From a virus, in IMG/VR virus record IMGVR_UViG_3300020430_002026, positions 1 through 40,533 of that record: a stretch of DNA of 40,533 nt, one strand, 5' to 3'. The position numbers and the translations under genes were made by a program. Numbering within the stretch: position 1 is the first letter of the stretch; each line of letters starts with the position of its first letter. The notes beneath the pieces were generated by a model. The model was not told the origin of the DNA, made no database searches, and saw nothing but the letters and a program-made list of their open reading frames with translations. Positions 27,866 to 32,541 of this stretch are shown here, one piece after another.

Positions 27866-28459
27866 ATGGCAGATTCATTATTCCAAAAACTACAATTTCA
27901 GGCTTTCAGAGCTGGCATCCCTCCTCGCACCGACGAGGCGCGTAAGTGGTTCAGGGACAAAGTCAAGAATATGAGGGGTATCAATAGGCAATCCCTTATG
28001 AAAGATGAACAACTCGTAAGAACTGCTCGTCCAAGAATGGGCGAGATGTATATGTTTTTCTATGATCCAAAACACAAGGAGACGTTGCCGTATTACGATA
28101 CATTCCCTTTGATCATTATGGTCGAGAAAGCACCTGGAGGTTTCTATGGTTTGAACCTTCACTATCTTCCTCCTCCTTTAAGAGCTAAGTTCTTCGATGC
28201 GTTGATGGAAACAATGAACAATAATCGTTATGATGAAACCACAAGGTTTAGAACAAGATATAGGATCCTCAAGAGTGTCCGAAAGCTTCGTTACTTCGAG
28301 CCTTGTTTTAAGCATTACTTGACCAAGCATGTTGAGTCTCGTATTATGAAGGTGGAAGCTCCTGAATGGGAGATTGCTTTATTCCTACCAACACAGAGAT
28401 TTAAGAAAGCTACTGCCACTAAAGTTTATACAGATTCTAGGAAAATGTTGGCATCATGA
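27866..28459 (+). CDS. conserved phage protein with a YYDTFPLI motif, function unknown
   Basis: 197 aa, basic. The core RPRMGEMYMFFYDPKHKETLPYYDTFPLIIMVEKAPGGFYGLNLHYLPPPLRAKFFDALM is a pattern I recall in many large myoviruses, where the protein is uncharacterised. The N-terminus is rich in Arg/Lys (PRTDEARKWFRDKVKNMRGINRQSLMKD). Its position between gp4 and a tube-like protein suggests a head-tail or DNA-end role such as gp2, but I cannot support that from the sequence. It has its own late promoter and no Shine-Dalgarno. Confidence 0.7.
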   Translation: MADSLFQKLQFQAFRAGIPPRTDEARKWFRDKVKNMRGINRQSLMKDEQLVRTARPRMGEMYMFFYDPKHKETLPYYDTFPLIIMVEKAPGGFYGLNLHYLPPPLRAKFFDALMETMNNNRYDETTRFRTRYRILKSVRKLRYFEPCFKHYLTKHVESRIMKVEAPEWEIALFLPTQRFKKATATKVYTDSRKMLAS

Positions 28460-29097
28460 CGTACCCCGCAAACATAGACTCGCTGAAGTCTACAATCGGC
28501 AGAAGAACCGGACTCGCAAAACAAAACAGGTTTGCAGTCTATATGAACTTACCACTCATTAGTATTGACGTTGGAAATATCTTAACGAACGTACTGTCCG
28601 GTAACTTCAATCCCCTGCAACTTATCAACGATCCTCGCGACATTTCGCTTCTTTGTGAAACTGCAACGTTGCCGGGTCGTAACATTGCTACAAACGAATA
28701 CTTTACAAACATGAAGGCTCGTAAGATGCCTTATGGCTACATCAACGATGATGTATCTTTTACATTTCTTTTAACTGGTGACTATTATATCAAAGACGTA
28801 TTTGATGGATGGGTCGGTAAGATCTTCAACCAGGAAAGAAAGACACTCGAGTATAAAGACAGTTTTGTATCGGAAGTTGAGATTCAACAATTGAATGACC
28901 AGAATATTCCAATCTATTCTTGTAAATTGTTGAAAGCCTTTCCGGTAACAGTGAGTGCTGTTGAGTTATCTAACTCTTCAGAGAACAGTGCGGCAAGAGT
29001 AACAATTACTTTTGCATATGATGATTGGGCTGAAACAAGCACGACCGGCTCTGCGATCGCTGCTAAAATTGGAAATGAGATATTTAAGAGGTTTTAA
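28456..29097 (+). CDS. tail-tube-fold protein (gp19/gp54 family)
   Basis: 213 aa. CETATLPGRNIATNEY, the KMPYGYINDDVSFTFLLTGDYYIKDVFDGWVGKIFN stretch and VTISAVELSNSSE-type C-terminal strands fit the tail-tube fold shared by gp19, gp48 and gp54. It overlaps the upstream gene by 4 nt (ATGA). It could be a tube-initiator (gp54-like) or a second tube protein, since no sheath gene is adjacent. It directly precedes the gp26 chaperone-like gene, as the tube gene precedes G in lambda-type tail operons. Confidence 0.72.
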   Translation: MTYPANIDSLKSTIGRRTGLAKQNRFAVYMNLPLISIDVGNILTNVLSGNFNPLQLINDPRDISLLCETATLPGRNIATNEYFTNMKARKMPYGYINDDVSFTFLLTGDYYIKDVFDGWVGKIFNQERKTLEYKDSFVSEVEIQQLNDQNIPIYSCKLLKAFPVTVSAVELSNSSENSAARVTITFAYDDWAETSTTGSAIAAKIGNEIFKRF

Positions 29098-29099
29098 TA

Positions 29100-29810
29100 A
29101 TGGCTTTACCAATGGTTAATACCGCACGCTACTCGGTCTTTCTTCCGGGGTGCGGCAAAGATGTGGAATACAGACCTTTCTTTGTAAAAGAACAGAAAGT
29201 AATTATGCAGGCTGCCGAGAGCGAGGATCCAGCTCAGATCAGTACTGCGACAGCAGATATGATTAAGGCATGCACATTTGAGAAGCTTGAGGTAGATGAC
29301 CTGACTTCTTCTGATGTGGAATATCTACTGTTAAAAATTCGTACTAAAAGCGTAGGTGAAAACGCAAAGGTGACTCTCAAGTGTCAAAAGTGCGATCACC
29401 CGATCGAGCACCAAATTAATTTAGATGCAATTGAACCTACAGGATCAGAAACTGGTGAAGTAAAAGTTCAAGTCAACGATAGCATTGGTGTATGTTTCCG
29501 GATGCCTACAATTGGTAAGCTCCGTAAATTTATGACCACTGCTGGTGGCCGAGCCGAAGACACTGTACTAGCAACGATTGCTGCTGCAGTTGATTATGTT
29601 TATGATGCTGATCAGGTGTATCCATCATCTGACCAAACACCTGAAGAAATTATCCAGTTTATGGAATCATTGAACGCTGAGCAGTTTGGCAAAGTTCAAA
29701 CGTCGTTTGATGAGTTCCCAAGACTGGTGCATGAAGTCGAATACAAATGCGACCAGTGCGGAAACGATAACAAAATAACATTAGGAGGTATTGGCGATTT
29801 TTTAAACTAG
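29100..29810 (+). CDS. 26: gp26-like baseplate hub / tail assembly protein with frameshift signal
   Basis: 236 aa in the zero frame. It has two CxxC pairs, CQKC (95/98) and CDQC (217/220), likely one zinc ribbon, and the long central helix region of the T4 gp26 family. The last codons are GGC GAT TTT TTA AAC TAG, with a full programmed -1 frameshift signal (see 29783-29840). Two products are therefore expected: the 236-aa protein and a 293-aa extended form. The AGAGG before its ATG is a usable Shine-Dalgarno. Between tube-like and tape-measure-like genes it occupies the place of lambda G. Confidence 0.82.
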   Translation: MALPMVNTARYSVFLPGCGKDVEYRPFFVKEQKVIMQAAESEDPAQISTATADMIKACTFEKLEVDDLTSSDVEYLLLKIRTKSVGENAKVTLKCQKCDHPIEHQINLDAIEPTGSETGEVKVQVNDSIGVCFRMPTIGKLRKFMTTAGGRAEDTVLATIAAAVDYVYDADQVYPSSDQTPEEIIQFMESLNAEQFGKVQTSFDEFPRLVHEVEYKCDQCGNDNKITLGGIGDFLN

Positions 29811-29840
29811 CCCTTTCTCATGATTCTCTAGAGAACATGA
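29783..29840 (+). promoter_or_regulatory. programmed -1 ribosomal frameshift site at the end of gp26
   Basis: Four elements line up. AGGAGG at 29783-29788 is a Shine-Dalgarno-like stimulator 12 nt before the slip site. The heptamer T TTA AAC (29801-29807) is in exact zero-frame register (X XXY YYZ). The zero-frame stop TAG follows at once (29808-29810). A hairpin follows 10 nt after the slip: TCATG (29818-29822) pairs with CATGA (29836-29840), TTCT (29824-29827) pairs with AGAA (29832-29835), loop CTAG, one bulged A. The -1 frame then stays open for 57 codons. This is the dnaX-type architecture. Confidence 0.85.
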
Positions 29841-29980
29841 TTCGGACGAACTTTGCATTATTACAATATCACAAGTGGACTTTAACTGAGATTGAAATGA
29901 TGCACCCGTGGGAAAGGGAAATTTACGTGGCCTTATTATTGCAATCAATTGAAGAACAAAACGATCGCCTTAAAAAATAA
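29807..29980 (+). CDS. -1 frame C-terminal extension of gp26 (57 aa)
   Basis: From the slip site the -1 frame reads LALSHDSLENMIRTNFALLQ and continues 37 more residues to TAA at 29978-29980, one base before the next ATG. The sequence is clearly protein-like: helices with HKWTLTEIEMMHPWEREIYVALLLQSIEEQND. The frame is open upstream through the end of gp26. An internal ATG at 29837 (47 aa) has no Shine-Dalgarno and sits inside the hairpin, so independent translation is less likely than fusion. By analogy with the T domain of lambda GT it would bind the tape measure. Confidence 0.75.
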   Translation, partial: LALSHDSLENMIRTNFALLQYHKWTLTEIEMMHPWEREIYVALLLQSIEEQNDRLKK

Positions 29981-30364
29981 ATGGCAGCACAGAAAAAATT
30001 AGAACCAAACTCAGATTATGAACATTTCGATATTGATGGTGACGGAGTAGTTACCGACGAAGAATTAAGAATGGAAGCTGAAATGATGCGATTAGAAAAT
30101 GAAGACAAGAAAGAAGATGCACAGCGACGTATGGCGTGGTTTGCTCTTATTGGCTTGCTCGTCTATCCAATAGGTATTGTAATAGCTGATTTAATTGGCT
30201 ATGAAACGACCGGACAGCTACTTGCCAATATTGCACCGACATACTTTGTTGCAGTTGCAGGTTTAGTAGGTGCGTTCTTTGGAGCTCAGGCCTATACTAA
30301 AACTAAAACTCATTCGGCATCATCATCTGACAAACCAAGACCACCTAAACCACCAAGGATGTAA
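29981..30364 (+). CDS. EF-hand protein with two membrane segments
   Basis: 127 aa. DIDGDGVVTDEE (17-28) is a perfect 12-residue EF-hand calcium loop (Asp17, Asp19, Asp21, Thr25, Glu28). A charged helix follows, then two hydrophobic segments (about 52-72, WFALIGLLVYPIGIVIADLI; and 84-103) and a Pro/Lys-rich tail (DKPRPPKPPRM). The ATG abuts the stop of the frameshift frame. A virion membrane-interacting role, or a holin-like role, is possible; neither is shown. Calcium dependence could link it to adsorption or DNA entry. Confidence 0.72.
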   Translation: MAAQKKLEPNSDYEHFDIDGDGVVTDEELRMEAEMMRLENEDKKEDAQRRMAWFALIGLLVYPIGIVIADLIGYETTGQLLANIAPTYFVAVAGLVGAFFGAQAYTKTKTHSASSSDKPRPPKPPRM

Positions 30365-30366
30365 TC

Positions 30367-32541
30367 ATGGCTGAAGCAGGATTTATCGAACTCATTGAAA
30401 AAGTAGAGCAGAGTAATACTCACCTACATAAGGTTGAAGAACATACTCGCAACTCGAGGAGACACCTCCTTGAGATGAAGAAGACTATGTTCGACATGGC
30501 GCAAGCCACGGAAATCCTTGCTACGCCAAATGAAGAAGAACGAAGAGAAGACGTTGCTCGCCAGGAAAGATTAATTGATGCTGTTCAAGGAATTGGACGC
30601 GGGGGACCTGGAGCTAGCTCAGCTGAGAAAAAAGGTGGCGGCGGAGGAATGCTTGGCGGCCTTCTTGGAGGAGGTGCCGGTGGTGCACTTGGTGGATTCC
30701 TAGGAGCAGCCGGTATCGGTGTCGGTGCGGCTACAGCAGGCCTTGGTGTATTGATGGCCGGCGGTGGATTCCTTCTTGAAAAACTTGCTGAGTTTGACGG
30801 TGAAGCTGTAAAGAAAAACGTTCTTGCATTAACAGACATTGGCGATGAGCTGGTAGCAAAATCAGGTTCAATGAAAGAAGCTTTCAAAGATGGCGGCCTT
30901 CTTATGTTTATGCTTGGAGGATTAGGTACAGCACTTATTGCCTTCGGTGCTGGAGCTGGTATTAATGCCGCTGTTGAAAAGTTTGCTGGTGATACAAAAT
31001 GGGCCGAAGCTACAAAGAAAAACGTAGAAACTCTACTTGGAATTGCTGACCTAGATTATACTGCTGCAGATATAGCAGGTGTGTCTGGAGCGTTAGGTGC
31101 ATTAGGTGTTGCACTAGTATTATTTGGTGCAGGTAAAACCGTTGCTACTGCTGCCGATGGTATCAATGCAACTGTGGATAAGTTTATGGGTACCGGTGAC
31201 TTTGCTCAAAACACGGTCGATAATGTCAAGAAGCTTCTAGAACTTTCCAGCATACAGATCGGTGATGTTGGAAAAGTTTCGGTTGCTCTTGGTGCTTTAG
31301 GCGCTGGCCTTGTACTCTTTGGCGCAGGTAAAGCTGTAGCCGGTGTAGGAGATCTTGCAACTGCAGGAGCAACTGCTGCTGGAACAGCCGCGGGCGTAGA
31401 AACCTTTATGAATGGTGATGGATTTGGTAAGCGTATCCATGACGAAGTTAAAGATCTTTTAGCGATTAATAGTCTTATTCCTTCTGATAGTGGAGCCTTT
31501 GCAGAAGGTGGCAAGTTCCTAGTAATTATGAGTGGATTGTCTGCTGGTCTTGTGGCATTCAGTATAGGTAAAGCTGCGTCTGCTGCAGCTGATGGATTGC
31601 AGGCTGGTGTTAGTCAGTTTAGTGATGCAGGCAACGCTGGATTTGCACAGAGAATTAAAGATGAAGTAGATGTACTTTTAAGCATTGCTTCAACACCTAT
31701 GGTCGAACCAGTGAAGTTTGTTTCTACCATGACAATGATTGGTAGTGGTCTAGCGGTGTTTGCAGTAGGTGAAGCTGCAACAGCTGTAAGCGGATTCATG
31801 AGTACATTTGCTGGAGAAGGAGATCAAAGTACTGCTAAAAGAATTAAGAGTGAAGTCGACTTACTCTTAAGCATTGGTCAAGACGGTGATCTTGATAAGT
31901 CAGCTAAAGCTGCCGAAGCAATGGGTAAAGTTGGTTCTGCTTTAACAGTGTTTGCTGCAAAAGAATTTGTTGGATCTTTAGCCAATGCTGGTTCTGCAAT
32001 TGTAAACTTCTTTAGTGGTGGTGAAGGACCGTTTGAAAAAATTAAAGCTCTTGCAGATGACGCAGATGATCTTGAAAAAGCAGCAGGTGCAATTGGTGCT
32101 GTTGCTGAAAACATGAATAAGATTGCCAACATTCGAATTGGTCGTAACACGGTTAATTTTAAGAAGTTTGGCGAAGATCTCAAAGAAGGTGTGCCTGCTA
32201 TTGAGGCTGCTGTACTTGGTGATGAAGGTGGTATATTCTTCGGCGATCCTATTCAAGGCTTGTCAAAGAACTCGCAGCAATTTGCTGCAGCAGCAGACAA
32301 TATTGCAACTCTTCGCACAGCTCTCGGCGATTCAGCACCGACAAGTATCACTAATAACTACTATGGCGGTGGCCCAGGCCAAGGTGCAGCTACTGCGATT
32401 CCAAACACACCTCCTCCAAGTAATAATGACGGCGTCCTCAAGAGCGGAAGTGCTCATGCAGATGCCAGTGATTCCTCTGCAATTATCAAAAGCGGAGCTC
32501 ACCCAAGAGCTGCCGCTATGCAAAGATTACAAGGATTTTAA
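30367..32541 (+). CDS. tape-measure-like tail protein with six internal repeats
   Basis: 724 aa. An N-terminal charged coiled-coil (IEKVEQSNTHLHKVEEHTRNSRRHLLEMKKT) precedes a Gly-rich hydrophobic segment (GGGGGMLGGLLGGGAGGALGGFLGAAGIGVGAATAGLGVLMAGGGFLLEKL). From about residue 175 to 600 there are six degenerate repeats of 65-85 aa. Each has a hydrophobic core like LGALGAGLVLFGAGKA followed by a RIKDEVDxLLSI helix. A Gly/Pro/Asn-rich C-terminus follows. Order after tube and chaperone genes supports a tape-measure role. At 724 aa it would suit a tail of roughly 100 nm. It ends at a strong terminator. Confidence 0.65.
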   Translation: MAEAGFIELIEKVEQSNTHLHKVEEHTRNSRRHLLEMKKTMFDMAQATEILATPNEEERREDVARQERLIDAVQGIGRGGPGASSAEKKGGGGGMLGGLLGGGAGGALGGFLGAAGIGVGAATAGLGVLMAGGGFLLEKLAEFDGEAVKKNVLALTDIGDELVAKSGSMKEAFKDGGLLMFMLGGLGTALIAFGAGAGINAAVEKFAGDTKWAEATKKNVETLLGIADLDYTAADIAGVSGALGALGVALVLFGAGKTVATAADGINATVDKFMGTGDFAQNTVDNVKKLLELSSIQIGDVGKVSVALGALGAGLVLFGAGKAVAGVGDLATAGATAAGTAAGVETFMNGDGFGKRIHDEVKDLLAINSLIPSDSGAFAEGGKFLVIMSGLSAGLVAFSIGKAASAAADGLQAGVSQFSDAGNAGFAQRIKDEVDVLLSIASTPMVEPVKFVSTMTMIGSGLAVFAVGEAATAVSGFMSTFAGEGDQSTAKRIKSEVDLLLSIGQDGDLDKSAKAAEAMGKVGSALTVFAAKEFVGSLANAGSAIVNFFSGGEGPFEKIKALADDADDLEKAAGAIGAVAENMNKIANIRIGRNTVNFKKFGEDLKEGVPAIEAAVLGDEGGIFFGDPIQGLSKNSQQFAAAADNIATLRTALGDSAPTSITNNYYGGGPGQGAATAIPNTPPPSNNDGVLKSGSAHADASDSSAIIKSGAHPRAAAMQRLQGF

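Follow-up and report, generated by a model that had tools for sequence, protein, structure and literature searches.

The gp26 homologue of the window (the whole 40,533-nucleotide stretch analysed here) and the open frame overlapping its end very probably form the tail assembly chaperone locus of a marine T4-like myovirus, in which a programmed -1 ribosomal frameshift on the heptamer U UUU UUA would yield one protein in two lengths. Sequence comparison argues very strongly for programmed -1 frameshifting, in the sense that the related phages reveal a slip site, a switch of the coding frame and, in most relatives, the lack of a start codon for the extension. This gives strong support to the programmed frameshift with a G/GT-like pair of products that the first-pass annotation of this DNA had proposed.

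All the elements of the locus lie on the plus strand. The gp26 homologue (29,100-29,810), a putative short tail assembly chaperone (TAC-N, with a lambda gpG-like role), encodes 236 aa and its zero frame does end in GAT TTT TTA AAC TAG, as originally read. It matches the PF12322 T4_baseplate family over the full length of the profile (E 7.1e-57, positions 3-218 of 219) and phrog_150 over positions 5-232 of 282 (E 1.2e-59). The -1 frame is open from 29,771 to a stop at 29,978-29,980, and the part of it beyond the shift, the extension (29,807-29,980, 57 aa plus stop), has the protein-like character ascribed to it and ends one base before the ATG at 29,981. This extension matches phrog_634 “baseplate hub assembly catalyst”, i.e., the short “gp51” of cyanophages (E 1.1e-21), so the predicted long form (TAC-NC) would comprise 293 residues with a gp51-like domain, its T-like part, at the end. 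Upstream of gp26, a tail-tube-like protein is encoded at 28,456-29,097 (phrog_45 tail tube, E 2e-33; PF23849, E 1.4e-6), and further downstream lies the gene of a putative tape measure protein of 724 aa (30,367-32,541), which by position would be the client of the chaperones. This last protein has no match in Pfam or PHROG, and its assignment rests on position and on the relatives, several of which have homologous long ORFs 3' of the extension; the equivalent gene of Vibrio phage K571 matches the phrog_58 tape measure family (E 2.4e-10), and a comparison of the relatives' downstream proteins with T4 gp29 gave no clear similarity. The space between the extension and this gene is occupied by a 127-aa protein (29,981-30,364, plus strand) with a loop resembling an EF-hand (DIDGDGVVTDEE) along with hydrophobic segments, for which the Pfam EF-hand and holin matches stay below the cut-off, and 80 bp of which share about 81% identity with Roseobacter phage CRP-207. 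The gp26 homologue itself carries two CxxC pairs (C95/C98 and C217/C220), suggestive of a zinc site; cysteine pairs are present in T4 gp26 too, and P-SSM2, S-CAM1 and Mosig have other residues in their place.

Relatives were gathered from IMG/VR in two ways, with the extension as the query (80 loci) and with gp26 alone (77 new loci), and were complemented with 18 further loci, namely those of 17 named or single-cell phages (the near-identical phiM12 and phiN3 being counted once) and that of L002, the nearest relative, whose gp26 is 65% identical. The latter set spans Kyanoviridae, Straboviridae outside the T4 group, and phages of Vibrio, Aeromonas, Sinorhizobium, Stenotrophomonas, Pseudomonas and Rhizobium. 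The three sets together comprise 175 loci, or 151 after removing redundancy. A conserved heptamer and -1 frame in related gp26 genes had been suggested as a check, and both are found: an in-frame T TTT TTN occupies the homologous codon in each of the 80 loci retrieved with the extension, in each of the 77 retrieved with gp26 (every one followed by a homologous -1 extension, one of which ends early at a contig end), and in 17 of the 18 added loci, which lie outside the T4 group. Elsewhere within gp26 the same in-frame T TTT TT is rare, at only 24 of 35,403 codon positions. With the encoded amino acids and the codon usage taken into account, the chance of T TTT TT at the site is about 0.40 per locus, and the joint probability over the 151 loci (10^-59.5) assumes independence, so that, the loci being related, it is indicative only. 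The exception, the divergent Vibrio phage 1.255.O, is a counterpoint to the frameshift reading: its locus (L089 2160-2400) reads CTT TTT CGC TAA, without T TTT TTN, and its -1 frame is nonetheless open with extension-like sequence, so a different mechanism may operate there.

Regarding elements that could stimulate the shift, an AGGAGG (29,783-29,788) precedes TTTTTTA by 9 nt and TTTAAAC by 12 nt, the latter being the spacing given when it was first compared with the element of dnaX. Across the 151 relatives, Shine-Dalgarno (SD)-like pairing peaks just 5' of the slip site, with a mean of -6.06 versus -4.91 (sd 0.11) in a synonymous-codon null that ignores the kinship of these related sequences; part of this peak is due to an invariant glycine codon that forces GG, although the excess over the synonymous null remains. 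The element of the window is itself very strong (-11.1). The 9-bp hairpin claimed 10 nt downstream fared less well: an imperfect stem of that length (approximately 29,818-29,840) is compatible with the sequence and is also what folding predicts, but its -7.5 kcal/mol does not surpass the stability of shuffled sequences (z -0.29), and the relatives share no such stem. On average, the 50 nt downstream of the site in the relatives fold better than dinucleotide shuffles (mean z about -1.2), and a search of them for a shared downstream stem with RNAalifold returned no consensus structure; lineage-specific downstream structures are possible. The locus thus resembles dnaX of E. coli in having an SD-like element upstream, near the slip site, that is kept beyond the needs of the amino acid sequence, and differs from it in the heptamer, in the gene, and in lacking a clear equivalent of the strong hairpin that dnaX has downstream.

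The pattern of substitution locates the change of frame. In close pairs of relatives, substitutions peak upstream of the site at the third codon position of the zero frame (0.364) and downstream of it at that of the -1 frame (0.392), and the same switch is seen when the window is compared with L002 alone; since the most variable codon position changes frame there, so does the coding frame. Could the extension nevertheless be a small gene in its own right (a gp51), translated from a ribosome site that belongs to it or through coupled re-initiation, so that the two proteins are never fused? Public records do show a separate “baseplate hub assembly catalyst” gene, and the window has an ATG in frame, at 29,837. 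However, this is the first -1-frame start codon available, it falls at residue 11 of the extension, it is poorly served by SD pairing (-2.9 kcal/mol), and only 11 of the 151 relatives have a start codon at its position. Furthermore, in 109 of the 151 loci the -1 frame contains no ATG, GTG or TTG from its preceding stop codon up to the sixth residue of the extension, the remaining 42 having a possible start codon upstream of the extension or early in it, so that independent initiation would forfeit a conserved stretch in most of these phages. A separate gene would also leave the in-frame T TTT TTN, all but universal, unexplained, and the annotated starts of the extension vary among relatives, with some records leaving the region blank. 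Considering the start-codon survey together with the frame switch, we judge independent initiation very unlikely. As for individual records, the annotation of the Pelagibacter phage Mosig places the start of the extension well within the conserved region (L004 3262-3396), and the extension of S-CAM1 (L006 3212-3398) is left unannotated in the public record.

A homopolymer of 6 to 8 T is also a substrate on which RNA polymerase might add or drop bases, bringing the two frames together in a part of the mRNAs. Transcriptional slippage of this type seems to us very unlikely, given the run length, the fixed codon phase and the SD-like element: the run is exactly 6 T in 104 of the 151 loci, the minimum for the re-pairing of two tRNAs; its phase is always xxT TTT TTN, which a slipping polymerase would not need; and the upstream element acts on ribosomes. 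If it is ribosomes that slip, there is still the question of the heptamer. The first-pass annotation chose U UUA AAC (29,801-29,807), which is indeed in register, and heptamers such as TTTAAAC are good -1 sites in other systems. Nevertheless, among the loci compared, TTTAAAC is found at the slip position in this window only: L002 reads TTA GGG in its place and shares TTTTTTA, and the other relatives have T TTT TTN. The conserved site lies one codon upstream of the one chosen, overlapping it, and this T TTT TTA (29,798-29,804; zero frame GAT TTT TTA) is the more likely main slip site of this phage. That the shift takes place mainly on TTTAAAC instead, as a variant of the same programmed frameshift, appears unlikely.

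The phages of the T4 group, where the arrangement is different, help to interpret the extension. T4 gp26 covers phrog_150 only to position 235 of 282, whereas T4 gp51 covers positions 13-280 and its end also matches phrog_634 (the direct alignment of the gp51 C-terminus with the extension is weak). Because gp51 spans both families and gp26 stops short, T4 is, as judged from these profile matches, a phage with a short form and an in-frame long form encoded as two genes. The suggestion that the extension supplies a T domain missing from T4-like phages does not hold for T4, which has its T-like part within gp51. Matches covering at least 80% of T4 gp51 are present in 1,334 phage records, and the short gp26 genes of T4, 44RR, QL01, ZZ1 and EC-F2, each accompanied by a separate long gene, all (5/5) lack the run of six T. 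The slip-site and the two-gene arrangements were mutually exclusive among all phages examined: unlike the T4 group, with two genes and no slip site, the phage of the window has one locus with a slip site, plus the additional overlapping TTTAAAC. In Enterobacter phage EC-F2 (L181 2001-3294) the long and the short chaperone genes are found in tandem on one strand, as opposed to the divergent order of T4, and neither contains a slip site. A broader scenario, which we put forward tentatively, is that both overlapping sites (U UUU UUA and U UUA AAC) are in use in this phage, giving two long forms that differ by one residue and a shift rate above that of its relatives and, more generally, that the frameshift and the two-gene versions of the chaperone pair have substituted for one another among T4-like phages.

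At the structural level, the AlphaFold2 model of gp26 is confident (mean pLDDT 91.5), and its best match among 350,542 PDB chains is the tail assembly chaperone of HK97 (2ob9). This match is weak (E 0.23; TM-score 0.23/0.40), so the likeness of the predicted fold to the HK97 chaperone is suggestive. The sequence profile of gp26 found no match among solved structures, nor did the fold search with the extension alone give a significant one. The lambda G/GT model fits the gp26/extension locus by analogy: in both there is a tube-like gene, a short chaperone, a -1 extension with no start of its own and then, here as a putative gene, the tape measure, the two being likened by layout. Unlike in the lambda pair, whose heptamer differs from the gp26 slip site, the short protein is larger here and bears CxxC pairs.

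We infer the slippage itself, its efficiency and the function of the products as chaperones, and the following sequence of events is proposed. The majority of ribosomes would complete gp26, releasing the short form, while a minority would move into the -1 frame on U UUU UUA (29,798-29,804), probably aided by the upstream AGGAGG, and continue into the 293-residue long form with its gp51-like end. By analogy with gpG and gpGT of lambda, the short form would act as a coat on the tape measure protein and the extension would draw in tube subunits, neither form remaining in the virion. In phages of the T4 group the same pair comes from two genes, with gp26 as the short and gp51 as the long form. For T4 itself, gp26 and gp51 have been reviewed as hub assembly chaperones, gp51 being required for assembly and absent from the particle (PMC3004832).

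Frameshifting in the chaperone genes of T4-like phages appears to have been reported by 2022, so the mechanism is not new, contrary to the initial impression that T4-type gp26 lacked such a description. Vladimirov, Gautam & Davidson (2022, Virology 566:9-15) identified tail assembly chaperones in T4-like phages, as cited in PMC10885494, which adds that some T4-like phages carry a short gene and a long fusion gene instead of the frameshift, and in PMC12846349, which mentions polyT -1 signals in T4-like TAC-N genes. That system shares with the one described here the gene families (PF12322/phrog_150 and phrog_634) and, as far as these citing papers convey it, the polyT -1 signals and the short and long pair. 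A review of 2016 had T4 as the exception to G-T frameshifting (PMC5009743). The TAC genes of Vandenendeviridae and Andersonviridae, which are other phage families, can be likened to gp26 by site and position, since they have a polyT -1 shift (motif GTTTTT) at the end of TAC-N, upstream of the tape measure gene (PMC12846349). What is added here is the corrected heptamer, the scale of the conservation, the test of the SD-like element and the sharp separation from phages with two genes, points of which some may already be covered by the 2022 paper.

The frameshift would explain why the “gp51” of cyanophages and marine vibriophages seemed to fall short of T4 gp51, a comparison of 2010 having found the cyanophage protein to lack the first ~200 residues (PMC3037559): these residues would be supplied by gp26 through the shift, and many public records consequently probably have a wrongly delimited gene. 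The slip-site group and the two-gene T4 group, in turn, offer a natural comparison for how the ratio of the short to the long chaperone is set.
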